Shown: positions 9,692 to 30,678, counted from the stretch's first letter. The stretch is 64,000 nt of DNA from Fibrobacterota bacterium (GCA_028287505.1 JAQBPN010000028.1:1-64000), one strand, 5' to 3'. Notes: generated from the sequence alone by a model not told the origin. Translations and numbers: made by a program.

Positions 9692-12600
9692 CTAACCCGT
9701 TTTTCGCCTTTCCTCGAATCCGTACCAGGCCATATCCACCATGATATCGATGAATGTCTTGAGCTTGTTGTCGTCCGCCAAGATTTGACCGGCCATGGCA
9801 TTGTTGGCGGAGCGGTGCTCGATGACCGCATCGGTCACCATGTTCCGGATATCGCCCAAAGCGAACTGAGGCTTTGTATTGGCCGCCGCTTGCTGCGCCA
9901 ACTCTTCCGATTCCATCAGCTTGTCGCGCACGCCGTGGGCGTAGTTGACCATATCCGTCCCGGACAATTCGCCCTCGAACAAATCGTTGAGCCGTTGGAT
10001 GATTTCGGAGAGGAAAACCTTGTCCTTGGGATTGAGCTTGCCCGACCCGGCATCGAAGATCCCTTCCAGCTCCGAGACCTTGCCGGGATCCAGCTTCAAC
10101 TCCTGCGCCTCCTTGGCGCGGATGGAGTAGTGCGTCAGCTTCACGCCGGACAGATCCACATGAGGCCTGTCTTCCGGAGCAAGGCGCATGGCTTCTTTGA
10201 GGGGATGCAGGATGTGCTTGAAGAGGGCGTACCTCTTGGCGAGATCGGTATCTTCGTAGTTGAGGATCTGACCCAGGAACTCGTAGAGCTTGCAGTAGGT
10301 CCCTACGTCCTTGACCAGCATGATGATCCCATCAATCGCTTCCTGGTTTTTGGCGAAGCGCGCTTCTTTAAGGCGATCCTTCACTCGTTGCACCGGCGGC
10401 GCGATCAATTTCTGGAGTTCGCCATGGGACCGCCTCCCGGTGGGGTTCCAATAGAATTGGAAGAAGGCTTCCACCTCGGATGCGAGATAGAATCCGTCCG
10501 CGTCCAGTTTGGCTTGCAGTCGTAACAGCACCTCGGGATCCGAACCTCCGGGCATGCTGGCCGCGCGGAAATAGACCTGGAAATCCTCCAGGATCTGCTG
10601 CGGATCGTTCACGAAATCGATCACGACGGTCCAGTCTTTCTTCATTGCCGGATAGATGCGGTTCAGGCGGCTCAGGGTCTGCACCGTGGCCACGCCCCCC
10701 AGCCGTTTATCCACGTACATCGCGACCAGCTTCTTTTGATCGAAGCCGGTCTGGTACTTATTCGCGACCAGCAGGATATGGTATTCGTCGCTGTCGAAGG
10801 CCTTCGGGATATCCCGTCCCCGCAGGTGCGGATTCATGGATTTCTCGGTAACCGGATCGGGCCCCACTTCCTTGTCATTAATCTCGCCCGAAAAGGCCAC
10901 CAAGGTGCCGATAGGATAGCCCTTTTCGCGGATATACCGGTCCATCGCGATCTTATAGCGCGCCACCTCTTGCCGTGAGGCGGTCACCACCATCGCTTTG
11001 GCTTGACCTTCCAGCCGGTAGGCCACGTTCTCCCGGAAATGCTCGACGATGATTTCCACCTTCTGGGCGATGTTGTGAGGGTGCAGGCGAACCCAGCGCA
11101 CCAGCATCTTGGTGGCCTCCGACTTGTCGACTTCGGAATCCTCGTAATCCTTGCCGCCATGCGCGAGCTTCCAGGCCACCTTGTATGGGGTGTAGTTCTG
11201 GAGTACGTCCAGGATGTACTCCTCTTCTATGGCCTGTTGCATGGAATAGGAGTGGAAGGGTCGCAGCACGCCCTCCGCGTCCCGGCGGCCGAACAGCTCC
11301 ATGGTTTTGGGCTTGGGCGTGGCCGTGAAGGCGAAGTAGGAGAGGTTCCGGCTATTCGCCTGCCGGTCCATTTCCGCCATCAACAGGTCTTCGGCGGTGA
11401 CCTCTTCCTCGCCTTCCGGTTGAAAGCCCAGGGCCTGCTTGACCTTTTTGGCCGCTTCGCCGGTCTGAGAGGTATGGGCCTCATCGGCGATCACGGCGAA
11501 AGGCAATTCCTTCAGGGATTGATCGGTCGCGAGATGCTCCAACACCCGCCCGAAGGATTGGATGGTGACGATGATGATCTGCTTGCCGCCCAGCAGCGCT
11601 CCGCTGAGTTTGCCCGACTTGGAGCCTTCTTCGTTGGTGATGCGTTCCACCACGCCTTCGGTGCGCTCGAACTGCTTCACCGTGGCCTGCAACTGCTTGT
11701 CGAGCACGGTGCGATCGGTGATGATGACCACGGACTTGAAGACCTTGGTTTCGGCGCCCGAGAGATCCGTGCGGTGCAAGCTGGCGAGGTGATGCGCCAG
11801 CCAGGCGATGGAGTTGGACTTGCCCGATCCTGCCGAATGCTGCACCAGGTAACGCTTGCCGGCCCCCTCCGTCCGCGCGGCCGCGACGAGCTTGAGCACG
11901 GCATTCCATTGATGGTAACGGGGGAAGATGAGAGCTTCCTTACGGATCGTCTTGCCGTCCGGCCCTTCCTCCTCGGTGACCTCCAGATGGATGAATCCGC
12001 CCAGGATATGGATCCATGCATCGCGCTCCAGCACCTGTTCCCACAGGTAGCTGGTCTTGATCCCGTGCGGATTGGGCGGGTTGCCCGCGCCTTCGTTGTG
12101 GCCAAGGTTGAAGGGTAGGAAATGGGTACCGCCGCCCTTGAGATGCGTGGTCATGTATGCTTCGTCGGTGGACACGGCGAAATGCACCAGGCAGCGGGTC
12201 TTGAATTGGAGCAGGGGCTCCTTGGACCGGGTCTTCGGATCTATCGGGGGCCGGTCCAGCTTGTACTGGCGGATGGCATCGTGGACCGATTGGGTGGAAT
12301 CGGTCTTCACTTCCAAGGTGGCTACGGGAATGCCGTTTAGGAAGAGCACGAGGTCGAAAGACTCGGCGGGCCGGAAGGGCGAGAAGTGGACTTGGCGGAC
12401 TACGCGGCAGATGTTCTTGGCGTAGCGCTCCTGGGCCTCGGGATTGAGTCCGAAGGCAGGCTTGAAAGAGGCCATCTCGAAGTAGGTGTTGCCGGTGCCG
12501 ACCAGCTTGAAGCCCTTGCGCAGCACGTGCAGGGTGCCGTCGCGTTCGAGATTTTCGGCGAGCTTGCGAAGGAAGAACTCTTCCGCGCCGGACTCGGTTC

Positions 12601-12799
12601 TGCTGGCCTCGACGAGCTTCAGCCATTCCTTGGGATAGGCGAAGCGGACCCAGTCGAATACGTCTTCGGGATAGAGGGCCTGGTAGGCGACGTATCCGGA
12701 TGGATTTTTTTCGCCGCCGACCCAGCCGTGAGCCAGGAGGTGGTCGACGATTTCGGCCTCGAAGTGTTCTTCGTGGTGGATGCTAAGGGATGGCGTCAT
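9692..12799 (-). CDS. hsdR: Type I restriction enzyme R subunit
   Basis: 1035 residues; the motor and nuclease subunit of a type I restriction-modification enzyme. The N-terminal PD-(D/E)xK nuclease is seen in SFDLVLFLNG...LEVK (Glu163 and Lys165). The SF2 helicase/translocase part has Walker A HSAGSGKS near residue 300, TDRTVLDKQLQ, the DEAH box VIADEAHTSQTG and motif III FAFTATPKPK. The C-terminal ~150 residues are helical, as expected for HsdM contact. The start ATG 12799 overlaps the hsdS stop (ATGA, 12796-12799), so it is probably translationally coupled. It appears intact. Confidence 0.95.
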   Translation of the reverse strand: MTPSLSIHHEEHFEAEIVDHLLAHGWVGGEKNPSGYVAYQALYPEDVFDWVRFAYPKEWLKLVEASRTESGAEEFFLRKLAENLERDGTLHVLRKGFKLVGTGNTYFEMASFKPAFGLNPEAQERYAKNICRVVRQVHFSPFRPAESFDLVLFLNGIPVATLEVKTDSTQSVHDAIRQYKLDRPPIDPKTRSKEPLLQFKTRCLVHFAVSTDEAYMTTHLKGGGTHFLPFNLGHNEGAGNPPNPHGIKTSYLWEQVLERDAWIHILGGFIHLEVTEEEGPDGKTIRKEALIFPRYHQWNAVLKLVAAARTEGAGKRYLVQHSAGSGKSNSIAWLAHHLASLHRTDLSGAETKVFKSVVIITDRTVLDKQLQATVKQFERTEGVVERITNEEGSKSGKLSGALLGGKQIIIVTIQSFGRVLEHLATDQSLKELPFAVIADEAHTSQTGEAAKKVKQALGFQPEGEEEVTAEDLLMAEMDRQANSRNLSYFAFTATPKPKTMELFGRRDAEGVLRPFHSYSMQQAIEEEYILDVLQNYTPYKVAWKLAHGGKDYEDSEVDKSEATKMLVRWVRLHPHNIAQKVEIIVEHFRENVAYRLEGQAKAMVVTASRQEVARYKIAMDRYIREKGYPIGTLVAFSGEINDKEVGPDPVTEKSMNPHLRGRDIPKAFDSDEYHILLVANKYQTGFDQKKLVAMYVDKRLGGVATVQTLSRLNRIYPAMKKDWTVVIDFVNDPQQILEDFQVYFRAASMPGGSDPEVLLRLQAKLDADGFYLASEVEAFFQFYWNPTGRRSHGELQKLIAPPVQRVKDRLKEARFAKNQEAIDGIIMLVKDVGTYCKLYEFLGQILNYEDTDLAKRYALFKHILHPLKEAMRLAPEDRPHVDLSGVKLTHYSIRAKEAQELKLDPGKVSELEGIFDAGSGKLNPKDKVFLSEIIQRLNDLFEGELSGTDMVNYAHGVRDKLMESEELAQQAAANTKPQFALGDIRNMVTDAVIEHRSANNAMAGQILADDNKLKTFIDIMVDMAWYGFEERRKTG

Positions 12800-14115
12800 G
12801 CGAGGTGCCTGACGTCGATTTTGCCGGTGACGGCTTCGGAGATCAGGCTGGCGCGGTGTTCTTGCATGAGATTGATTGACTCCTCCGCTTCCTCAATCAG
12901 AATATCAAGATTATTTGCTTTTTTTCTTATGAACTTGATGATTTCACTTTGCTCGAAATCGCTCGGACAAGGTAGAGTCAGTTCCTTAAGATTCGAAGAA
13001 GAAATTGACGCGAGGTTTGTGCTTTGTTTCGCTACCGACATGAAGTAGAATTTCGCGGGACTTGAAGAGGCATACACAGCTAGCCAATCAGCAGTTATCG
13101 ATATCGTTCTGACCGAGAACACATGGTTCTGGTGGACGCAAGGTGAAACTTGTCCGTCCCAAACGCATCCACGTCCGAGCTTATCGAAGTCACCGCCTTC
13201 GTTCATCAATACGTCACCAGGGCGAAGTTCATATCTTGATTTTTCGTCCTCTCCGATCTCGATCTCAGCAACATCCTCTAAGTCTAAGTAGCCATCCTGC
13301 ACGTTTGCAACCCTAAGGTATGGAACCATAATGGTATTGATTCCAGTTAAGTCCCGGCCTTTTGCGATACCTCCTCGAACTTCGGCGACTTGCTTGAGGC
13401 GCTTTATCTTCCAATGCTCCGGCACCTCCCCCAGCCACTCCACCCCCGAATCCTTCATCTTCGCTTTTGGATTCAAGCCCTTGGTCACGGCGTTCGAAAT
13501 CAAGGCCTGCCGCTTTTCTTGCAGAAGGGCAATGAGTTCTTTTTGCTCGCGGATGAGGAGGTCGAGTTTTCCGGTTTCGCGGTCGAGAAACTTGGCAATA
13601 ATTTCCTGCTCAGAAAACGTAGGAACCAAAATTGGAAATACCATTAGGTCGTCGCGACTCATTTGAAGCGAATTGGGTCGAATTCCAGTCAAATATTTTG
13701 TATACCCAATCACGTATATCGAACTACGCATAAGATGATGAATATATTGCTTATGGATGCCGCTTTTCAGCCAATAACATCGGTATGCTGGACTGACATA
13801 TCCTTCAAACTCTGATATTCCTAATCCAGTGTAGTTCAACCACATTGTATTAACGACGAGTTGCCCCTTTCGAACGACTCGATACCCAATCAAATCTTCT
13901 TCATTTCTCTTTCTATTCTCGTCATCGTACTGCTTGATTTCAATCCCACGATACCCGCTAACTGAAAGCATTTCTCCGACAATTTCCGATTCGATTTTTT
14001 CCGAACTTTCACTAAAAATGAAGCGAAATTTCTCGAGATTCCAGTTTTCTGGAATGTCTCCGATCCAATCTATTTCTAATGCTCTGTACTTGGGATACGG
14101 TTTAATGCTTCTCAC
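12796..14115 (-). CDS. hsdS: Type I restriction-modification specificity subunit S
   Basis: 439 residues, beginning at a GTG that overlaps the hsdM stop (GTGA, 14112-14115). The architecture is standard. TRD1 starts at [11 protein letters not shown] and ends before the helical repeat [21 protein letters not shown]2 starts at [11 protein letters not shown] and ends at a second helical repeat ending [12 protein letters not shown]. The two half-subunits set the bipartite DNA target, which cannot be read from sequence. Both TRD-coding stretches are clearly more AT-rich than the neighbouring genes, consistent with exchange of target-recognition domains. Confidence 0.93.
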
Positions 14116-15863
14116 TCCGCCACCTCCGTCAACAAAGCCTGAATCTGCGCCACCTTCTGCTTAAGCTCCTTGTTAATCTCCTTCAACGGCCGTGGCGGTA
14201 CATACTTGTAGAACTCCCTCGTAAAAGGAATCTCATACCCTATCTTGGTCTTCTCCTCATCGATCCATGCATCCGGCACATGCGGCAGTACTTCTCGCTT
14301 AAAGTACCTCTCCACCTTCTCAGTCAGCGGTACGTTCTCCGTATCCCGCAACTTCGAATCGGCCTTCGTTTGCCCTTTCTTGTCCAGCACCGGCTTCCCA
14401 TTCTCATCCAACAGCGGCCGTTCCACCGTGATGGTCCGGTACCCGAACTCTTCCGTCTTCAGAATCCGGCACGTCTCGCCTTTCTTGAAATCCCCGTATT
14501 GCTTGGTGATGGCCGCTACCTGATCCGGCGGGATTTCCCTGCGCTTGGAGCCGAGGGATTTCTTCATCTTCTGGAAGCGATCCACCGCGTTCACCAGCTG
14601 CACCTTGCCCTTGCGCTCCGGCGCCTTGTGGTTGCTCAGGATCCAGATGTAAGTACTGATGCCCGTGTTGTAGAACATGTCGGTGGGCAGGGCCACGATG
14701 CCTTCGAGCAGGTCGTTCTCGAAGATCCATTTGCGGATATCGGACTCGCCCGACCCAGCGCCGCCCGTGAATAGGGGCGAACCATTCAATACGATGCCGA
14801 TGCGCGAGCCGCCTTCCGCCACGGGACGCATCTTGGAAAGGAGGTGCATCAGGAACAGCAGCGATCCGTCATTCACGCGGGGCAGGCCCGCGCCGAAGCG
14901 GCCGGCGAAGCCTTTGTCCTCATGTTCATCCTCAATCTTCTTCTGCACCTTTTTCCACTCCACGCCGAAGGGAGGGTTGGAGAGCATGTAGTCGAACTTC
15001 TGCCCCGAGTGCTTGTCTTCGGACAGCGTGTTGCCCTGAACGATGTTCCCCACGTCCTGCCCCTTGATGAGCATGTCGGCCTTGCAGATGGCGTAGGATT
15101 CGTCGTTCAGCTCTTGCCCGAAGGCGACCAGCTTCACCTTGGGGTACATCGCGCGCAGATGCTCCTCGGCCACCGAAAGCATGCCCCCCGTACCCGCAGT
15201 GGGATCATATATGGACTGGACCACGCCCGGCTTGCCGAGCTTCGGATCATCGCCTAGAAACAGGAGATTGACCATGAGCTTGATGACTTCACGCGGGGTG
15301 AAGTGCTCACCGGCCGTTTCGTTGGAAAGTTCGGCGAACTTGCGGATGAGTTCTTCGAAGGCCAGACCCATCGACGTGTTGGGGATCTTCTTGGGATGGA
15401 GGTCGATCTTGGCAAATTCTTCCGCCACCTTGAACAGCAGATTTTTGCTGTCGAGATACTCGATCTGATCCTGGAACTTGTAATGATCGAAGATGTCCCG
15501 GGCCGAGGAGGAGAAGGCGTTGAGGTAGCGGATGAGATTGGCCTTGATCTTGTTCGCGTCGCCCAGGATGATTTTCAGATCCATCGGTGAGGTATTGTAG
15601 AAAGCGTATCCTGACGCTTTGCGAAGTTGCGACTCCTGGACCTTTTCCGAATCCTTGGCCACTTTCGGAGCCACTTTCAGGACGGCGGCTTTGGTATCGG
15701 CCAGCACGCAGTCCAGTCGGCGCAGCAGGGTGAAGGGCAGGATGACCGTGCCGTAATCGGATTGCTTATAGTCGCCGCGGAGTAGGTTTGCGACGGCCCA
15801 GAGATTAGAAGAGAGGTTGGTATCCATGGTTCCCTTGATTGGATGCGGATTGGTGATTTTCAT
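14112..15863 (-). CDS. hsdM: Type I restriction-modification methyltransferase subunit M
   Basis: 583 residues. The N-terminal helical HsdM domain ([19 protein letters not shown]) is followed by a gamma-class N6-adenine methylase with the SAM motif [10 protein letters not shown] near residue 220 and the catalytic NPPFG near 295. It modifies the sites recognised by HsdS and forms the M2S core of the restriction complex. Start ATG 15863 overlaps the abiEii stop by four bases (ATGA). A later ATG at 15827 ([10 protein letters not shown]) is a possible alternative and would break the overlap. No Shine-Dalgarno is seen, which fits coupling to the upstream gene. Confidence 0.93.
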
Positions 15864-17050
15864 AGTTCGATTGCGTAGCGCGGCCGGAACTCGATGTTCG
15901 AAACCGTTGCAGATTGGATATCGTTGACGTTGTAACTCCGATGCGCCCCTACCGGCCTGCCGCTCTTTTCGATTTCCCAGACGTGCAGGATCTCGTTCCC
16001 CGTGGATGGGTAACGCAGGGAGTATGGCTCCACGAGCCGCGTCGAGTCATGGTATTCCACGTATGCCGCCAACCGCCGATGGGCGGCCTGCTTTATACGT
16101 TCCATCGAAGCTGGGCCATTGCGGGACGGGAAATACGCGTATGTCGTTCGCTCCGCAACACGATCATCCGGCCCGGCTATCGGTGGCGGTTTGGGTTGGG
16201 CTTTTGTCGGCTCCAGCCACCATGCCAGGGCGTCCGGAAGATCCGCCAGGAAGGAATCAACGCTTGCAAGCTGGTGGATTTGATGTGCCAGTTGATCTTC
16301 CCACGCCGCCCTTAACTGGCCCGCATCCACGGCTGCCAAAACTCCCTCCACGGTTGGCATAGGAAGGTCCTTGAATTTGAATTTGGCATGCGCAATTCGG
16401 CGGGCGCGTTCCGGATCCACTTGATCGCGGAAATTGCGGCTGATGTTCACCAAGTCATAAACGTCGCGGGCCCGGCCTTTTCGCTGCAGCAATGCCCGGG
16501 TTTTTTCGGCCAGGATTTCGTGTATTGAATAGCACCGGATCAAGGACGGCGGATAATCTGCATCCGAATAGCCGTGGTGAAGCGGCCTCAGATCCGGTTC
16601 GTCCACAAGAATTTCATCTTGGGTCAGGTCGAATTTGATTCGTTGAAGGGAGCGCGCGGGTTGAGGATGCGGACCGGCGTAGGAGATCTTCGCCATATGC
16701 GCCGGCTTACCCCGCGGATTGAGGTACTCTTCGATTTTCCAATCCTGGCGCGGGAAGATAAGCCCACATCGGGCTTCCACCCATTTAACCATGGTTTCCA
16801 AATGGCTTTCCAAATAGGGAACGCTCACGGTATGCGCCACCGGTATCGTAAAGTCCAAGTCTTCGGAAAACCGGTAGGTTTCGAAGTAGCACTTCTTCAG
16901 GCATGTGCCGCCTTTGAACAACCATTCCTTTAGGATTGGATGCGCAGAGACGGATCGCAGGATCCATCCCAACGCATAATCCTTCTGGATGGTAGTGGCG
17001 GGAAGCTGTTGAAACTCACCCACAGCGTTGAGTTCGGCCCGTGTAATCAT
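15860..17050 (-). CDS. abiEii: AbiEii-family nucleotidyltransferase toxin with a WYL-like C-terminal domain
   Basis: 396 residues from ATG 17050, which overlaps the abiEi stop (ATGA). The N-terminal ~280 residues are an AbiEii/DUF1814 nucleotidyltransferase: FKGGTCLKK (46-53), RFSEDLDF with the paired acidic residues (60-67), a third conserved strand IKFDLT (138-143) and the helical motif [20 protein letters not shown] (181-200). The toxin blocks growth until neutralised by AbiEi. The family is usually nearer 300 residues. Here residues ~315-396 add a segment with [24 protein letters not shown] and FRPRYAIEL, which I read as a WYL-type ligand-binding fold. A Pro-rich linker (about 281-295) joins the two. 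Confidence 0.85.
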
Positions 17051-17856
17051 GCAGCCTCCCAAGGCAGGTTGATGCGTAGGTTCCAACGGGTCACGATCCG
17101 GCCTTGTTTCGGGGCTCCTGGATCAAGCTCACTGATTCCTTGGGTCACATGTGAACGGCAAATTCCGAACCATTCTTCGCCAAGCGGTGCCTTCAACACT
17201 TCCATCAGAAATCCTAGCCGTTTGAAGACCGAACCTTTGTCGAATCGCGTGGCGTAATCCAACAAGATCGGGCCGTCGCATTTGCCCTTGCGCAGGTATT
17301 CGCGAATGATATCGACGGTATGCCTTCCGCCGCCTCCGAAGGAGGGATCATCGAGGATGTCGATAACCAATCGATGGGGATCCGCTATTTCGATTTTGCT
17401 GCTCCCCGTCCAAATCGGCGTATAGCCGAACCTCCGATGCTCAGGCAAGGTTTTGGTCCGGAATTCAATGCCACCGATTGATTGCGAAGCGGGGTGTTGA
17501 GGATGGCCTGTAACGAGTGAAACGCTGTTGAAGATCTGCTCCGTTAAATCCCAGTGTTCCGCAGCTGTCCAGCCCGACAAGAATGCGGGCTTGAAAAGAT
17601 CCATGGCTACCGACCAAGGGTTTTCCAGCGGAGCCTGAGGGGTGGCGTGAAGCGGGATAATGCGAAAGACCCCGGCGCGGAGTTTTTGCAACCAACCTTT
17701 TTGGGCCATCCGGTTCAGGATCTGGCTGCCGATTTTCCTGGAGCCTGGAAATAGGGAGAGTACGTCATCGATGCGAATTGTTGATGCTTCAGTCGCGGAG
17801 AAATGCCTAAGCACCTCACACTCATGATCGCTTAACCCTTGGCTCCTTTTAACCAT
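17047..17856 (-). CDS. abiEi: AbiEi-family antitoxin and transcriptional autorepressor
   Basis: 269 residues. The N-terminal winged-helix region (LRHFSATEASTIRIDDVL to AGVFRIIPL, about residues 16-70) and a C-terminal domain with WTGSSKIEIADPHRLVIDIL match type IV AbiE antitoxins. Known family members neutralise AbiEii without a stable complex and repress their own promoter by binding paired inverted repeats. It is the first gene of the five-gene leftward operon, and two related inverted repeats lie directly upstream. The ATG at 17856 has no clear Shine-Dalgarno. The sequence is recognisably AbiEi, but the operon-wide role is inferred. Confidence 0.85.
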   Translation of the reverse strand: MVKRSQGLSDHECEVLRHFSATEASTIRIDDVLSLFPGSRKIGSQILNRMAQKGWLQKLRAGVFRIIPLHATPQAPLENPWSVAMDLFKPAFLSGWTAAEHWDLTEQIFNSVSLVTGHPQHPASQSIGGIEFRTKTLPEHRRFGYTPIWTGSSKIEIADPHRLVIDILDDPSFGGGGRHTVDIIREYLRKGKCDGPILLDYATRFDKGSVFKRLGFLMEVLKAPLGEEWFGICRSHVTQGISELDPGAPKQGRIVTRWNLRINLPWEAA

Positions 17857-19038: not shown

Positions 19039-19473
19039 ATGTTCAAGGATACCAAGGCATTCGCCAGTTTTTCCGTAAATGACTCCGAAAAAGCCAAAGC
19101 TTTCTACGGCAAGACTTTGGGTCTCGACGTCCGCGAGTTGCCCGGCATGGACGGCTTGCTGCAACTTCGCTTGGCGGGAGGCGGCAAGGTGATGATCTAT
19201 CCGAAAACCGATCACGCGCCCGCCAGCTTCACCGTGCTCAATTTCCCCGTGGATGACGTGGACAAGGCCGTGGACGGCCTGAAAGGCATGGGCGTCCGCT
19301 TCGAGTCCTACGCCCAAGAGGAGATCAAGACCGACGCCAAGGGCATTTCCCGGGACGAGGGAATGGCTATCGCCTGGTTCAAGGACCCCGCCGGGAACAT
19401 CTTGTCCGTACTGAGCGGCAAGGCCACGGAGCAAGAGGAGGAATTGGAGTCGGTGGGAGCCGCGGGGGCTTAA
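19039..19473 (+). CDS. VOC (glyoxalase/dioxygenase superfamily) protein
   Basis: 144 residues with paired beta-alpha-beta-beta-beta units ([20 protein letters not shown] and [31 protein letters not shown] near the end). This is typical of small bleomycin-resistance/glyoxalase fold proteins. GGGAGG lies before the ATG. Specific metal ligands cannot be assigned with confidence, so substrate and activity are unknown. Its stop codon overlaps that of the fucosidase on the other strand in a shared TTAA (19470-19473). Confidence 0.8.
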
Positions 19474-21287
19474 GGAGAAGCCTTCCCATTCTTTTTCAAG
19501 TGGTGCGCGCGCACGGCCTCACCCGTGAGATCATAGACCCTGCCCGCGTCGCCGTGTTGGAAAAGCGGCGTGGCCATTCGATCTTGCGAAAGGGTTTGCG
19601 TCTTTTTTGACCGCGCGCCGCCTCCCTTGCCTTGGCCCAACAGCGTGGTGGGCAGCGAATCCACCAGCACCTGCACTTCGGCGAGACTCAAGTATCCGGA
19701 ACCGGTCAGCTGGATCCTGACATAACGGCAGGCGCGGCTTCCGGCGTCGATATTGGCGATTGGGTTGGGATAGGCCGTCTGGTGGCTGGTCCAGACCGGG
19801 TTCCGGTTCTGATCCAGCAGGATCAGATTGTAGTCTCCCAGCCTGCCCATGAGTTCATCGGTCCGGTTGTAGATGCCGACATAACTCACGGGATAGGAAG
19901 CGCCCAGGTCCACTTCCCACCAGGCGCCGGCCGCGCTGTCGGTATGGGTGACGGAGTTGCCGTTGAAGTTGCCATCGGTATTCCCGTCGATGGCCCTTGC
20001 TGGCACGCCTCCGAATCCCGTCGAGCTTTGCGTCGCCGTGCCGCCCAAGGCGACGTTCTTGTAGTGCATGACCGGCCTGGAATGATCCAGGACCATTTTC
20101 AGGACGGTATACAAAGGGTCGATGTCCTGCGCGGGGAGCGTGATCTTGATCGCCATGGGAGTTTGGACCACGGTAGGCGCGCCTCCGCTCAGGCTGGCGG
20201 CGGAAACGATGGTGGCGTTGACTCCGGGAAGGGTCACGGTGCCGGCGAAGGGTTTGAGGTGGACGTACATGGTGTCCCCGCGATGCGTGGCGCCTCCCCA
20301 GCTTCCTCCCACGATGGGGCCCCCCACCGTTCCGTAAATGCTTTCCCCGTATCGCCCCATCCAATCGCCTATCTCCCTGAGTCGGGCCACCATGGGAGGA
20401 TCGATGATGCCATCGGGCCGGGGCCCGACGTTCAGCAGGCAATTGCCGCCGCCGTCGGCGGTCTGCACGATCATGCCCACAAGCTGGCTCAGGGGCTTCA
20501 GCCCGCCGTTGGGGTTCCAGGCCCATTGGTTGGTGCCGTCGATGGTCATGCAGGATTCCCAGGCATGCAAGGTGTCGAACGCGCCTACCCTCTGCTCCGG
20601 AGTGGCGTAGTCGCCGAGGGTCACATGATCGCCCCGGTTGTTGACCAGGATCCAGGGTTGTTTTTGGCGCATCCGCTTGAGGAGGGCGGCGGGATCGGCG
20701 CCCACCGGATCCAGATCCCACCACACCGTTTCGATGCGGCCGTAATGGCTCAGCAATTCGTCCACCACCTGGTTGGTGTATTGGGTGAGATAGGCGGGGC
20801 TGCCGTTGTTGCCCACGTACCAATCGGCGGGAGAATAGTAGAGCCCGATTCCCATCCCCAATTGGTGCGCCGAATCCACCAGCTCTTTGGTCACGTCGCG
20901 GCGGAAAGGGGACTGCGGGGACATGATGCCGTAGTCGGTAAGCGCGGTGTTGAATTCGCAAAACCCGTCATGGTGCTTGGCGACGAACACCATGTATTTC
21001 ATCCCGGCCCGCTGGGCGATGCGCACCCATTCCCCGCCGTTGAATCCGGTGGGATTGAACTGCTTGTACAGCGCGTCGTACTCCGCGGTCGGGATCTGAT
21101 TGCCCCGGGACCAGCTGATCTCCTGGCCGCGCAAGGCCACCGGGCCCCAATGGATGAACATTCCGAAGCGTTGCTTTTTCCACCAGTCCATTTGCTGCGC
21201 ATGGGTGGTGTCCAGGGAATGATCCTGGGCGTGGAGTGCGGAAGCGGCTAAGGCGACGATAATCGACAGGGTTTTCATTTTTCTCAT
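19470..21287 (-). CDS. Secreted GH29 alpha-L-fucosidase with an F5/8-type carbohydrate-binding domain
   Basis: 605 residues with a signal peptide ending near SALHAQ. The GH29 catalytic barrel shows FGMFIHWGP (41-49), [13 protein letters not shown] (101-113) and the strand [10 protein letters not shown], whose Asp191 is the likely nucleophile. It ends with [15 protein letters not shown] coagulation-factor 5/8 C (CBM32/47-like) domain follows at about 408-540 ([28 protein letters not shown]). It would release terminal fucose from glycans outside the cell. The C-terminal tail has [12 protein letters not shown] and then stops, resembling the start of a sorting domain. It is probably the last gene of the operon beginning at 24002. 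Confidence 0.92.
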
Positions 21288-21369
21288 GGCTCTTTCCGGT
21301 TCTTTTTTGGAAAATTCCTGAATAGGGCTTCCTGGGGAAGCCCGGTTTAATCCGCGTCTTGTCTGAGCC

Positions 21370-23154
21370 TTAGGGCAGGTTGTCCCGCAGGCTGATGGAA
21401 TCCTTGCCTGGAAAATCCCCAGGTACCGGCAAAGTTACTGTGCCGGATGCCGCCCACTCCGCTCCCCGGGAGAACGTGGTCTGGTAACCGGCGCACCGGT
21501 ATGCGGTATTGGCCGTTCCCGGGTAAAGGTGTCCCACCGTGCTCGTGAAAACCCGGCCTTTGCCGAATTGCTTCACCCATTGCTGCGGTTCCCGGCTTCC
21601 CGTGAACGGGTTGACCGAATATTCCAACACCGTGACCCCTTGCGGACTGCCCTTGAGATGATAGAGCAGCTCGGAAGGGGGAAGCAGCCATTGGGCGGGA
21701 AGCCCGCGGTTGAGGGGGTGGTCCGGATTCGCGATGCCCATGCGTTCCCCCGGGTTTCCGGGCGCGGCGTTTTCGATGGATCCGGAATCGAGGGTAGCCG
21801 GATCGGCTACCAGCGCGTCGAGAGAGTCGAGACGGTAACTGGACCCGGCGGGTTGGGTGGCTTTCCACATCAACCCGCGCATCTCGTCGAAGGCGGGCCA
21901 GCCGGAGAAGCCGGGAAAGGTGGCATGGGTGTTTACCAGGCCTCCCCCCGAGGCCACGAAGGCTTCCAGGCGCGCCTTGATGGAATCCGGCCAGGGATTG
22001 GCGGAGTCGTTGACCGTATACCCGGAATTGCAATGCAGGATCACTACGTCGTTTTCGGAGAACTGCGGGTTCCAGGCGGCCCACGCCTGCGGGCCGGACT
22101 GGTCCGGAGGAGTGGTGGAAACCGCGACGTCGAAAATCCCGGATGCTTTCAGAATGGCGGAATGATACAAGGTCATCCGCTTCCAATCATGGTTGGCGAT
22201 GCCGTCCACGATCAGAGCTTTGATCTTGAACCGTATCTCGCCCGCCGCCGTGGTCAAGCCGGGCTTGACCGATATTCCCGCAAGCCGCAAAGTATCCCGG
22301 AAGGGATTCTCGCCCCAGGCCAAAACCGTATGGCTTCCCGCCGTCACGTCCTGGAAAAGCACGGCTCCGCCGGAATCCGCGGTCAGGATTCCTCCGCCCT
22401 CTTCCAGCCGCGCCTTCAGGCGGCCGGCCAACGGTCCAGGAAAGGCAAGGCGCAGGGATAAAGCGCCCGCGGAGGTATCCAAGGCGGGTCCCGCGGTCAG
22501 GGAGAGATCGGTCACGGTCTTTCCGGGAAGAACTTCTATCAAGGTATCCACGGCTTTGCGTACGGGATGGATTCCTTCCACGCGCACCTGATATTCGCCG
22601 GGAGGCAGGCTATAGAATCCGAAGGCGCCCGTTCCGGCGGGAGCGGCTCCCGGGGGAATATATTCGGACAGATGCGTCCCGAGCAAAGTGACCACCATTC
22701 CGCCGAATGCGGAAGGGGGCAGGCTTACCTTGCCCGTGATCCCGCCGATCGCGCGCAGGACCAGGTCGCCCAGCCGCACGGACTGCTTCGGCTCGCGCCG
22801 GAAGTTCGCGCGCGCGCCTTTGACTTCGTTCACCAAGGCTTCGACCACGAAATCGCCGGTGTCGGCGGGCCCCGGGAAAAAGGCGAAGCCGCCATCCGGA
22901 CCGGTGGTGTCGGACCATTCCATGCCCGGAGAGGAATGTCCCAGGAGGGAATCCGCCAGGCTTCCCTGGAAATCCGCGGGCCGCATTTGGATGAGCCGAC
23001 CCGCCACCGCAAGGCCGGACGTATCCGTCAGGATCCCGGCCACCTTGTCGGCATTGCCCGCATCCGTGCCCGCCGAAGGGCCATCGCCGCACCCCGCCAT
23101 CAGGAAACCGGCCAGCATGGCCCCGGCGATCGGCAGCCTGGCACGGAGTTTCAT
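21370..23154 (-). CDS. Lipoprotein with carboxypeptidase-regulatory-like repeats and a ThuA-like domain
   Basis: 594 residues. The lipobox LMAGC puts the lipidated Cys at about residue 22. Residues 35-300 contain beta-sandwich repeats of the carboxypeptidase-regulatory type (GILTDTSGLAVAGR, GITGKVSLPPS, SLPPGEYQVRVEG). Residues ~312-565 match a ThuA/trehalose-utilisation, class I amidotransferase-like fold (KALIVDGIANHDW, VILHCNSGY, GGGLVNTHATFPGFSGWP, HPLNRGLPAQW, WVKQFGKGRVF). ThuA-like domains occur in sugar-use gene sets but have no settled reaction. The start overlaps the end of the TIGR02147 gene by four bases, and an 82-base gap precedes the fucosidase. Confidence 0.8.
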   Translation of the reverse strand: MKLRARLPIAGAMLAGFLMAGCGDGPSAGTDAGNADKVAGILTDTSGLAVAGRLIQMRPADFQGSLADSLLGHSSPGMEWSDTTGPDGGFAFFPGPADTGDFVVEALVNEVKGARANFRREPKQSVRLGDLVLRAIGGITGKVSLPPSAFGGMVVTLLGTHLSEYIPPGAAPAGTGAFGFYSLPPGEYQVRVEGIHPVRKAVDTLIEVLPGKTVTDLSLTAGPALDTSAGALSLRLAFPGPLAGRLKARLEEGGGILTADSGGAVLFQDVTAGSHTVLAWGENPFRDTLRLAGISVKPGLTTAAGEIRFKIKALIVDGIANHDWKRMTLYHSAILKASGIFDVAVSTTPPDQSGPQAWAAWNPQFSENDVVILHCNSGYTVNDSANPWPDSIKARLEAFVASGGGLVNTHATFPGFSGWPAFDEMRGLMWKATQPAGSSYRLDSLDALVADPATLDSGSIENAAPGNPGERMGIANPDHPLNRGLPAQWLLPPSELLYHLKGSPQGVTVLEYSVNPFTGSREPQQWVKQFGKGRVFTSTVGHLYPGTANTAYRCAGYQTTFSRGAEWAASGTVTLPVPGDFPGKDSISLRDNLP

Positions 23155-27144: not shown

Positions 27145-27669
27145 ATGCGGAATTCCGGGGGTGAGATGGTTCTGAACGCCAAAGATGGGTTCTCCGCATT
27201 GGAGATTCTGGTCGCGCTGATCGTGGTGTCGGTGCTGACGGCGCTTTGCATCAAACCGGTCACCGGCTTGTTGCAACGGATCAAAATCCAGAATTCCGCG
27301 GATGGAATCAAACACCTGATCCTCAATGCCAGGATGCGCGCGGTGGCGAATCCCAGCCGCCATTGCGGGGTGGTTTTCCGATCGCACACGTCTTCGGCCA
27401 TCAACGACAGCGTTTTCGCCTTCCTGGAAGGCGCTCCCCAGGATTATCTCTACACGGCCGCCAAGGACGAAGTCTACGGCGCCCCGTTCGTGGTGGACAA
27501 GAAGTACAAGCTTTCCTCGGTCATTCCCATGGGATCGCCCACGGTAATCGTCTTCCGCGGAGACGGCTCCGCCAATGCCAGCGCCAAGTTCATCCTGACC
27601 CTCGGCGGCAACCAGGACACCGTCAGCGTCCTGGCCAGCACGGGCAAGGTAAAGGTGGTGGTCAAATGA
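27145..27669 (+). CDS. Minor prepilin, GspH/FimT-like
   Basis: 174 residues from ATG 27145, preceded by AGGGGGG; ATG 27166 is an alternative. A short basic leader ends in KDG, then the mature N-terminus FSALEILVALIVVSVLTALC, with Glu at +5 and a single hydrophobic helix. This is the class III (type IV pilin) signal cut by prepilin peptidase. The globular part is beta-rich. It is the first of four tightly packed prepilin-like genes and overlaps the next by four bases. Likely a pilus or pseudopilus tip component. Confidence 0.8.
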   Translation: MRNSGGEMVLNAKDGFSALEILVALIVVSVLTALCIKPVTGLLQRIKIQNSADGIKHLILNARMRAVANPSRHCGVVFRSHTSSAINDSVFAFLEGAPQDYLYTAAKDEVYGAPFVVDKKYKLSSVIPMGSPTVIVFRGDGSANASAKFILTLGGNQDTVSVLASTGKVKVVVK

Positions 27670-28058
27670 ATCAGCGCGGCTGGTCCCTCATTGAAGCGCT
27701 TGCCGCCATCGTGGTGATCGGCATCGGGGTTTCCCTTTTCGTCAAGGTGCAAGGGATGACGAGCCGGAACAGCGCCACCAATTCCAAGATCCTCATGGCC
27801 GGCAAGATGATCGAAAAGCACCTCGAGGATACGCGCATCAGCATCAGCATGGACACGGTGGCCAATTGGCCGCCCAAGAGCAAGACCATCGCCGCCACCC
27901 CGCCGGACAATATCAAGGTGGTCAGCACCGTGGGCGTGGCCCATTCGCCCAAGGACGGCGCCGTGGTCGCCAACGTGGTGCGGATGGACATCGTGGCTTC
28001 CTGGACCAACCCCTCCGATACCCTGAAGGTCACAACCTATGTCTCCAAGCGATTCTAG
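27666..28058 (+). CDS. Minor prepilin, GspI/PilV-like
   Basis: 130 residues. The start ATG 27666 overlaps the previous stop (ATGA). The leader MNQRG is followed by WSLIEALAAIVVIGIGVSLF, with the usual Glu at +5 but Trp in place of Phe at +1. Its small size and position as second gene fit GspI/PilV, the subunit that nucleates the tip complex in known systems. Confidence 0.75.
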   Translation: MNQRGWSLIEALAAIVVIGIGVSLFVKVQGMTSRNSATNSKILMAGKMIEKHLEDTRISISMDTVANWPPKSKTIAATPPDNIKVVSTVGVAHSPKDGAVVANVVRMDIVASWTNPSDTLKVTTYVSKRF

Positions 28059-28902
28059 CCGCGCCGCCCATGGCGGCCGGGACAAATCGGGCGAGGGCGG
28101 CTTCTCATTGGTCGAGCTGCTGATTACCATGGTGGTCGCCGTACTCCTGGGCGTCGCCGTGGTCCGGTTCTACAAGGACTCCTACCACGCCTACAGCATG
28201 CAGGACCAAATCGCGGACCGGAACCAGAACGCGCAGTTCACCCTGGGCAAGATGGTGGAAGTCCTCCAGCAGGCGGGTTCGGTCCTGCCGGATTCCGGTT
28301 GGCCCGTGATCAAAGTATCGTCCGGCGTTTTGACCGTCGGCATCAACCCGCGGGGCGCCCAACAGTACAACTCGACCGATGCCCCAGCGAGCTATTTCAT
28401 CCCCGTGATGGATGGATCCAAGTTCATCAATACCGGAAACGTCCTGTTGAATACCACCCATGTCCTGGTGCAGTTCGCGGATCCCCTGAAGGCCGTGCAA
28501 AAGCTGAACATCGACTTGAGCTACAATAGCGGCGGGTTTTCCGCGGGGGTCAAAAACAACGGCGCCGGTCTCGACAGCATCCGCGTCACGACGCAGATCG
28601 ATCTGTCCGATGGGGACAAGATTTACGGATACCGGGAAGACGAGTACAGTCTTTCCGGGAGCGACCTGGTCATCCGTCCCAATGGCAACGTCGCCTTGCA
28701 AATGGTGCTTTCCGAAAACATCGACTCAATCGGCTTCACCTTCAAGACCGGAGCCGGAGCGGCCACCACCACATGGTCGAAGATGCGGTCGGCGAGCATC
28801 ACGGTGCGCGCCAGGACGGAAAGGCCCGATCCCAAACTGCCGGCCCCGGGCTATCATAAAATCAGCCTGCCCATGAACGTCATTTTGCGGAATAGAATCT
28901 GA
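28039..28902 (+). CDS. Minor prepilin, GspJ/PilW-like
   Basis: 287 residues. A 21-residue leader ends in EGG, then FSLVELLITMVVAVLLGVAV with Glu at +5. The ~250-residue globular domain is beta-rich, with VLQQAGS after the helix, as in PilW/GspJ. It overlaps the previous gene by 20 bases and is separated from the next by 12. In related systems this subunit links the GspI-like and GspK-like proteins at the filament tip. Confidence 0.78.
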   Translation: MSPSDSSRAAHGGRDKSGEGGFSLVELLITMVVAVLLGVAVVRFYKDSYHAYSMQDQIADRNQNAQFTLGKMVEVLQQAGSVLPDSGWPVIKVSSGVLTVGINPRGAQQYNSTDAPASYFIPVMDGSKFINTGNVLLNTTHVLVQFADPLKAVQKLNIDLSYNSGGFSAGVKNNGAGLDSIRVTTQIDLSDGDKIYGYREDEYSLSGSDLVIRPNGNVALQMVLSENIDSIGFTFKTGAGAATTTWSKMRSASITVRARTERPDPKLPAPGYHKISLPMNVILRNRI

Positions 28903-28914
28903 AGCGGAGGTGCC

Positions 28915-30678
28915 ATGCGCCAAGAACCGGACTCACCAGCAAACCTCTCCGGCAATCCCGCCGGCTCCCGCGGGTTCGTACTGGCCTTCACCATCATCCT
29001 CATCCTGGGGGTGACGGCCATTTCCGTGGGCACCATGTACAACGGCAAGATGGGCCGCATGTCCGCCCTCAATTACAAACATAAGATCCAGACTTTCACC
29101 GCTTCCGACGGCCTCATGACCCTGCTGGCCCAGGAGCTGATCAACGGAAACGGGAACAAGTACATCGATACCAGCCGGTTCGGAATCATCAACGGCCAGG
29201 AGTGGACCGGCCTACCCGGCACTTCGGTGCAAGACGTGAAGGATGCCATCATCAGCAATCCCACCGGCTTCAAGAACATCACCTCCTATTATCTGGGTTC
29301 CGCCCTGAACGAAGACAACTACGGAATCAAGTGGTCGGGCTGGTTGATCCCGCCCCTTTCCGGGAATTACACCTTCTACACCCGTTCCGACGATGCCTCC
29401 GCATTCTACCTGAGCTCGGACGGCAATCAGTCGAATCTTTCTTCCTCTCCCATTTGCGCGGAAAACGGTTGGGCGTTCCGTTGGCCGACCGGCGGGAGCG
29501 CCGTTTCCAAGCCCATCCCGCTCATCGGCGGGAACCGGTACTATTTCGAGTACTTTCACAAAGAAGGCGGCGGCAACGATCTGGGCCAGATGGGCTGGGA
29601 CGGACCGGAATTCTTCAGTGAGCGTCCCATCACGGGCAGATACCTGAGCCAATACAGCAAGGACCCCTCCTGGGCCGGGACCGACACGGTCGGCATCTTG
29701 CCCGTACGCTATCAGGTGCTGGGTACCGGGCAGGACCAGTACCGGATTTTCACCGAAGCGCTGGACACCCGGGCCGGCCATGCCAGCGATACCGCTTTCC
29801 GCGCCCCCCTGGAACAATCCGTTTCCATGAAAGGCAGCGTGGTGACTCCCCCCAAGACCATGTGGCTGCGCGTCATCCATTACGATTACAAAACGGACGG
29901 CAGCAATCCGGAATTCAATATGGATCCTTACGACGGCGGCGTCAAAAAGGACATGGTGAAAGACAAACTCACCGATTTCACCTCCAAAGATGCGGACTAT
30001 TTCGGATTGTCCTCCATCCCCAAACCCACGCATAATCTGAATACGCGCAACAATTCCTGCGGCTTGAACATGTGGTTCAAGGATTGGGTCAAGGTGAATA
30101 ACCGTTACGACTATCCCCAGCCGGACAATTGTTCGTCCACCACCTGGGATGCCTCCGGGGACGCCTGGAAAAACAAGAAGTACTACGATTCCCTGGACTT
30201 CACTTTGGATGAAACCCAAGGGCACAATACCTATGTCTACAGCCACATGGGCAATTACAATACCGGCGATGCGACCACCAGTTGGCGCGGCGACCCCTCC
30301 GAATATTTTCCGTTGGACAAATACGGACAGGATCCGCCCGGGTCCGGTCACAACTTCTCCTTCTGCACGGAATTGCACACCACCTTCCAATACCAATCGG
30401 GCATGAAGTTCGAATTCACCGGCGATGACGACGTCTGGGTATTTATCGACAATTCCCTGGTCATCGATCTGGGCGGCGTGCACGTTTCGAGCAACGCCTA
30501 TTTGAATCTGGACGACCTGACCAGCCTGAAATTCGGCCAGACCTATGATTTCGATTTCTTCCAATGCGAACGGCATATGACCAATTCCACCAGCCGCATC
30601 GTCACCAACATCAAGATGCCCCTCCCCAAGGGAAATCCCGTGGCCAGCTGGAAGCGGGATTACGGAACCGTGGACTGA
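28915..30678 (+). CDS. PilX/GspK-like prepilin fused to PA14 and fibro-slime domains
   Basis: 587 residues; GGAGG precedes the ATG. After SRG (residues 18-20) the helix [19 protein letters not shown] follows and has no Glu at +5, as in GspK/PilX tip subunits. Residues ~120-235 form a PA14 domain ([33 protein letters not shown]). Residues ~318-575 form a fibro-slime domain ([46 protein letters not shown]). Both domain types are linked to carbohydrate binding or adhesion. The likely role is the adhesive tip of a type IV pilus-like filament. Four cysteines in the fibro-slime part may pair. Confidence 0.85.

Follow-up and report, generated by a model that had tools for sequence, protein, structure and literature searches.

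A probable type IV pilus tip complex in Fibrobacterota whose fourth minor pilin carries PA14 and fibro-slime domains

Can a minor pilin that has taken up two adhesin-type domains form part of a pilus tip, and if so, what would such a tip hold on to? The question is raised by four adjacent genes, here called H, I, J and K, at positions 27145 to 30678 of JAQBPN010000028.1:1-64000, a stretch of 64,000 nucleotides (the window) from the genome of a Fibrobacterota bacterium (GCA_028287505.1; 6.07 Mb in 130 contigs, 98.7% complete). A first-pass annotation had read them as GspH, GspI, GspJ and GspK of a type IV pilus-like filament that presents a fibro-slime adhesin at its tip, possibly for contact with plant polymers. 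We found that the set is probably a type IV pilus tip-priming complex of the FimU-PilV-PilW-PilX kind, in which K would be a modular adhesin.

The gene arrangement itself came out as annotated. All four open reading frames are intact and lie on the plus strand, H and I overlapping by 4 bases and I and J by 20, with a gap of 12 bases between J and K. H (27145..27669, with an alternative start at 27166) encodes a FimU-type minor prepilin with a leader of 15 amino acids, I (27666..28058) a PilV-type one that begins MNQRG before the cleavage point, J (28039..28902) a PilW-type one with a leader of 21 amino acids, and K (28915..30678) a PilX-type modular tip prepilin of 587 amino acids with a leader of 20. 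The leaders are short, charged and of class III, with a Gly followed by an aromatic residue and then by the hydrophobic helix. The mature proteins would start FSALE, WSLIE, FSLVE and FVLAF, respectively, so that all but K have a glutamate at position +5; the 20 aligned K proteins are likewise all without it. Homologous sets in the same order were present at 17 to 19 other loci.

The fusion in the fourth gene was also confirmed. K matches PA14 (PF07691, E 7e-17, in two stretches) and, at amino acids 479-567, Fibro_Slime (TIGR02148, E 8e-34, 116 bits against a cut-off of 45 bits). Behind the leader comes the pilin alpha1 helix (amino acids 21-76, 28975..29142), which profile A5 finds phylum-wide and which AlphaFold, with seven sequences as input, models as a long helix at amino acids 19-76 with low confidence. 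The PA14 insert follows (amino acids 85-261, 29167..29697); its core at amino acids 91-230 takes the PA14 fold confidently, with a pLDDT of about 80, and includes a weak GLEYA match at amino acids 137-186. Its nearest folds in Foldseek and profile searches were the RsgI PA14 domains and the yeast Epa and Flo lectins. An Asp-Asp pair lies at amino acids 159-160 and is DD in nine of ten genus members and DN in the remaining one; in the PA14 lectins of the Flo and Epa type, this pair forms the calcium and sugar site. Next comes a beta-rich segment (amino acids 262-307, 29698..29835) with strands in the model, which every one of the 20 chassis members keeps, irrespective of its insert, and which we propose could be the remainder of the pilin head. 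The C-terminal part consists of an extended fibro-slime module (amino acids 308-578, 29836..30648; TIGR02148 core 30349-30615) with a GDDD motif at amino acids 503-506, whose DD pair is kept in 20/20 fusions, and of a tail, W-x-R-D/E-Y/F-G-x-x-D/N/E (30649..30675), which forms the very end of 20/20 fusions. Most free fibro-slime proteins end their match at position 276-286 of the 297 of the model, leaving the tail unmatched, and in a search of 168 phylum genomes the matches that reached the model end were K fusions or contig-end fragments alone.

K thus consists of a class III leader, a pilin helix and domains that are not pilus-specific. It matched no pilin family, with nothing against N_methyl or TIGR02532 at E values up to 1, nor did it match the GspK/T2SSK profile or PF05567, the C-terminal propeller of PilY1. 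We regard it as a pilin because of its leader, its hydrophobic helix, the gene order and the matches of its relatives to PilX_N (PF14341, E 7e-6 to 0.05, the protein of locus L128 alone passing the cut-off). Since K has no N_methyl match, annotation by profiles would hide its pilin nature.

The partners of K are recognizable, mostly at low scores. H passes the cut-off of TIGR02532 (19.9 bits against 16.3) and matches PRK10506 weakly (E 2.8e-5), I matches the PilV model TIGR02523 under its cut-off (E 4.2e-6) and N_methyl weakly, and J matches N_methyl weakly (E 4e-4). Homologues of H were found in 18 loci, of I in 19 and of J in 20; even with the first 30 residues removed, the window J matched all J homologues, at E 1e-107 to 2e-7. 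Distances between J proteins followed those between the K chassis with a Mantel r of 0.85, compared with 0.61 for I and 0.59 for H, none of 2000 permutations being as high in any of the three cases. The weak profile matches of the set members and of the K relatives point to a set nearer to FimU-PilV-PilW-PilX of type IV pili than to GspHIJK of type II secretion systems; of the first-pass labels, therefore, the order stands and the Gsp naming does not. In family f11 (L119, L120, L122, L123), a Gly replaces the Glu at +5 of J, H and I keep their Glu and K is again without, so that two tip subunits lack Glu5 there.

The fusion recurs well beyond the window. Full-length K homologues with 43-66% identity amounted to 11 copies, spread over five of the six genus genomes; three of these genomes are the metagenome-assembled genomes Fibrobacteres bacterium nzgw217, RYN_349 and Fibrobacteria bacterium Chersky_265. 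Three of the 11 copies lie in the window's own genome, on contigs C76, C94 and C78, and the copies of the genus fall into three lineages, and each lineage has H, I and J genes of its own upstream. At one genus locus (L031, G003:C50:16615-20098) two fusion K genes stand in tandem behind one minor-pilin set, as if they were alternative caps for a shared base, and next to the C78 copy a neighbouring protein has a weak CBM6-like match. A profile of the N-terminal half of K led further, to proteins in other families of the phylum that have the pilin helix alone in common with it. These loci, in three further families, carry full H-I-J-K sets, and all nine of their K genes with a complete C-terminus end in TIGR02148 above its cut-off. 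Homologues of J and I lie directly upstream of the fusion at every locus with enough flanking sequence except L127, so the fusion was not clearly seen to recur apart from minor pilins. A chance occurrence or a misread motif is ruled out because the whole arrangement is conserved in five of six genus genomes and in three other families.

In its spread the fusion differs from the fibro-slime domain as such. Fibro-slime-like proteins were found in 157 of the 168 phylum genomes, several of the compared genomes being incomplete, and a K-type N-terminus in 19, some of these being weak matches to K proteins of another kind. The large family f3, which is probably Fibrobacteraceae, yielded no genome with a match to the pilin end of the fusion. 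Outside the phylum, three of 289 genomes of the G188 phylum (locus L099, titled Verrucomicrobia) had a fibro-slime-like protein, none of which reaches the tail, and 25 genomes of other phyla with PA14 relatives yielded one fibro-slime-like match. A second K family (L059:7889-9679, L131, L132, L133), of about 600 amino acids, without fibro-slime and with pilin genes upstream, is present in four phylum genomes, the window's own included.

Comparison of the fusions across families indicated that PA14 is not the constant part of K. Among the fusions of the phylum examined, PA14 served as the insert in the window's genus only. Other fusions carried a DUF1349 or DUF1349-like domain (L116, L117, L122, L124), GH115_C (L119, L120, L123) or two F5/8C domains (L121, L125), L116, L122 and L127 being placed in the DUF1349 group by insert-to-insert similarity at E 1e-9 to 1e-39. 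All insert classes occupy one position, between pilin helix and beta segment, while helix, insert site, the beta segment of about 45 amino acids, fibro-slime module and C-terminal tail are conserved as a chassis. By sequence, then, the invariant is pilin plus fibro-slime plus tail, with PA14 as just one of four or more domain types that have occupied the insert position. When the chassis was placed in a tree without the insert columns, four changes among the four insert classes were required, the minimum being three. In it L122, with its DUF1349-like insert, nests within the GH115_C group with a support of 99/97, and therefore the insert has been exchanged at least once beyond the differences between lineages. 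A further protein, in genome G093 (L128:1341-3305, minus strand), has a K-type helix and a DUF1349-like middle but carries an Asp-box/BNR propeller where the fusions have fibro-slime, with no pilin genes upstream; given this replacement, the C-terminal K module may be exchangeable too. On balance we favour the view that in several families K is a chassis with one swap site that takes at least four carbohydrate-binding-type families, and that duplicated operons would supply exchangeable tips to a shared machine.

How would such a K protein be assembled and used? HIJK sets are operon-encoded tip complexes that prime assembly and are capped by a K subunit without Glu5 (PMC9934059, PMC10191384, PMC7541494). 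The tip minor-pilin set with its PA14/fibro-slime K was borne out, and because of this homology and the missing Glu5 we infer that the set sits at the tip, with K as its cap. The leaders of all four proteins would be trimmed by the prepilin peptidase, of which the genome encodes one, an A24 enzyme with both domains, so that processing is not evidently lacking. Assembly of H, I and J would then proceed by way of the helices that bear Glu5, and K, without Glu5, would cap the filament, its helix docked in the complex, its PA14 lectin-type domain sitting between helix and beta segment, and the fibro-slime module with the conserved tail making up its C-terminal part. PilB and PilC would extend the pilus through PilQ and PilT-like ATPases might retract it, so that PA14 and fibro-slime would be presented to a glycan surface and, if they bind it, the cell would be drawn there. 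Candidates for this machinery lie on contig C57, where the genes for PilM, PilN, PilO and the secretin (PilQ) cluster with pilins, and on contig C56, which carries PilB, PilC and PilT-like genes; the genome has eight T2SSE-family matches in all and 33 places with a pilin motif, in about a dozen clusters. With so many pilin clusters, the window set would be one of several possible tip sets.

Six points weigh against this picture. Given at least ten pilin clusters and a type II secretion-like cluster, it is ambiguous from the gene content which machine assembles the set. Part of the joint divergence of J and K goes back to a common history of the species. The fusion at L127, whose contig is short and whose genome is incomplete, has a non-pilin open reading frame upstream. 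The AlphaFold model of K is unreliable outside PA14, with a mean pLDDT of 50, and a profile comparison against H, I and J did not support the beta segment as a pilin sheet. Finally, sfGFP attached to PilY1.3 or PilW3 blocked function in Myxococcus xanthus (PMC7541494), and the large K must likewise pass the secretin. Still, the anatomy of K and of its operon supports well the reading as a pilus-tip adhesin, as far as sequence can tell.

What the tip would bind is less clear. It is possible, though we hold it to be the less probable case, that dead plant polymer is not the target and that the adhesin instead grips other cells, or polysaccharide on the organism's own surface, for predation, biofilm formation or aggregation. 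The glycans bound by PA14, F5/8C and DUF1349-like folds are of many kinds, and among the kinds of glycoside hydrolase that were searched for the genome has few, one GH9 and one GH10. The several tip operons per genome also resemble the interchangeable prey-recognition tips of Myxococcus (PMC12075869). A plant target is favoured, on the other hand, by the fibro-slime proteins of Fibrobacter succinogenes, which were detected on cellulose in the extracellular fraction and against which antibodies blocked 62% of adhesion (PMC4668043), by the PA14 domain of RsgI3, which binds pectin-like polysaccharides (PMC4711584), and by the weak CBM6-like match beside the C78 copy. With a single GH9 and a single GH10, and with the pilin end of the fusion unmatched in family f3, the suggested contact with plant polymers was not supported as a specific claim; since, of the hydrolase kinds searched for, those two are all that was found, other glycans, including cell-borne ones, are as likely a target as plant polymer.

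An unlikely alternative is that the set forms the pseudopilus tip of a type II secretion system, in which case the extra domains of K would serve to retain or recognise the enzymes being secreted instead of acting as an extracellular adhesin. The HIJK sets of the two systems are homologous and interchangeable (PMC10191384), and contig C84 carries a type II secretion-like cluster with T2SSE and T2SSM_b genes. However, that cluster already has pilin-type genes of its own, I matches PilV and the K relatives match PilX_N rather than the type II secretion K profile, and within the window no secretion genes flank the set, its neighbours being a purine nucleoside phosphorylase, a small helix-turn-helix open reading frame and ileS. 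Least credible of all, and quite doubtful, is that PA14 and fibro-slime are structural and, without a ligand of their own, serve as spacers or as a plug by which the tip is shaped and the secretin gated: the conservation of the tail and of fibro-slime goes far beyond the needs of a tip that explores ligands, and tip domains of the M. xanthus pilus form a plug density (PMC7541494), but the insert has been exchanged among domain families that all have carbohydrate-binding relatives, and the DD pairs of both domains are kept.

As a pilus-tip adhesin, K would have several partial counterparts. FimU-PilV-PilW-PilX with PilY1, in M. xanthus and Pseudomonas (PMC7541494), shares the H-I-J-K order, the K without Glu5, the paralogous clusters and the adhesive tip; here, however, the adhesin is fused into K, and PilY1 (PF05567) had no match in the 168 phylum genomes in a search without positive control. 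In Streptococcus sanguinis, PilB and PilC are tip-complex minor pilins on which adhesive or lectin modules are grafted (PMC8179133, PMC9934059), and such pilins bind glycans (PMC9934059), whereas here the insert separates the helix from the beta segment, a second module follows, and the carrier is the K of an HIJK set, without Glu5. The Kil (Tad) pilus of Myxococcus also has several minor-pilin complexes per genome with different tip domains, but it uses the Tad (Flp) pilins KilL/M/N instead of HIJK, and its description mentions neither PA14 nor fibro-slime (PMC12075869). The fibro-slime proteins of F. succinogenes share the C-terminal domain TIGR02148 and are implicated in cellulose adhesion, but they are separate from pilins in the reports on them (PMC3079729, PMC4668043), and the free forms of family f3 do not match the tail. 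Among solved structures, those closest to the PA14 insert are the PA14 dyad of Clostridium thermocellum RsgI3 and the yeast Flo/Epa lectins, which belong to sensors and yeast adhesins, not to pilins.

Modular adhesive pilins are thus already known, PA14 (IPR011658) being among the 15 commonest additions to them (PMC8179133), as are the exchangeable tips of the Kil pilus (PMC12075869). In the searchable literature, which does not cover the supplementary architecture list of PMC8179133, where an earlier fibro-slime pilin may be listed, we found no paper that joins a PA14 domain with a minor pilin; fibro-slime and PA14 occur together in one paper only, on Fibrobacter proteomics. What appears new there is fibro-slime on a cap without Glu5, the internal swap site and the spread over several families. 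The survey of PMC8179133 was defined by an N-terminal IPR012902/N_methyl signature, which K lacks; as K has no N_methyl match, a survey of that kind would probably miss it.

A small, transposase-like helix-turn-helix open reading frame lies upstream of H, and downstream of K follow the purine nucleoside phosphorylase, a BNR-repeat protein and ileS. No Rfam riboswitch match was found upstream of the operon in the window or at nine homologous loci, and promoter and terminator signals at the operon scored no better than shuffles. On the minus strand at 9692-17856, a type I restriction-modification system (hsdR, hsdS and hsdM) is directly followed by a nucleotidyltransferase gene of the AbiEii type (PF08843, E 9e-34) with an unassigned partner gene, a block that, to judge from its genes, combines defence with a putative toxin-antitoxin pair. 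At 19470-23154, also on the minus strand, an alpha-L-fucosidase with an F5/8C domain adjoins a ThuA-like protein in a small glycan-use cluster.

Pilin caps without an N_methyl signature, such as K, can escape surveys of modular pilins. The swap site has in addition produced natural tip sets that differ mainly in one module, and so the share of the lectin module in the grip of a pilus is directly testable. For Fibrobacter, fibro-slime proteins and type IV pilins have each been proposed to hold the cell to cellulose, with no known link between the two; here, they are joined in one polypeptide at a predicted pilus tip.

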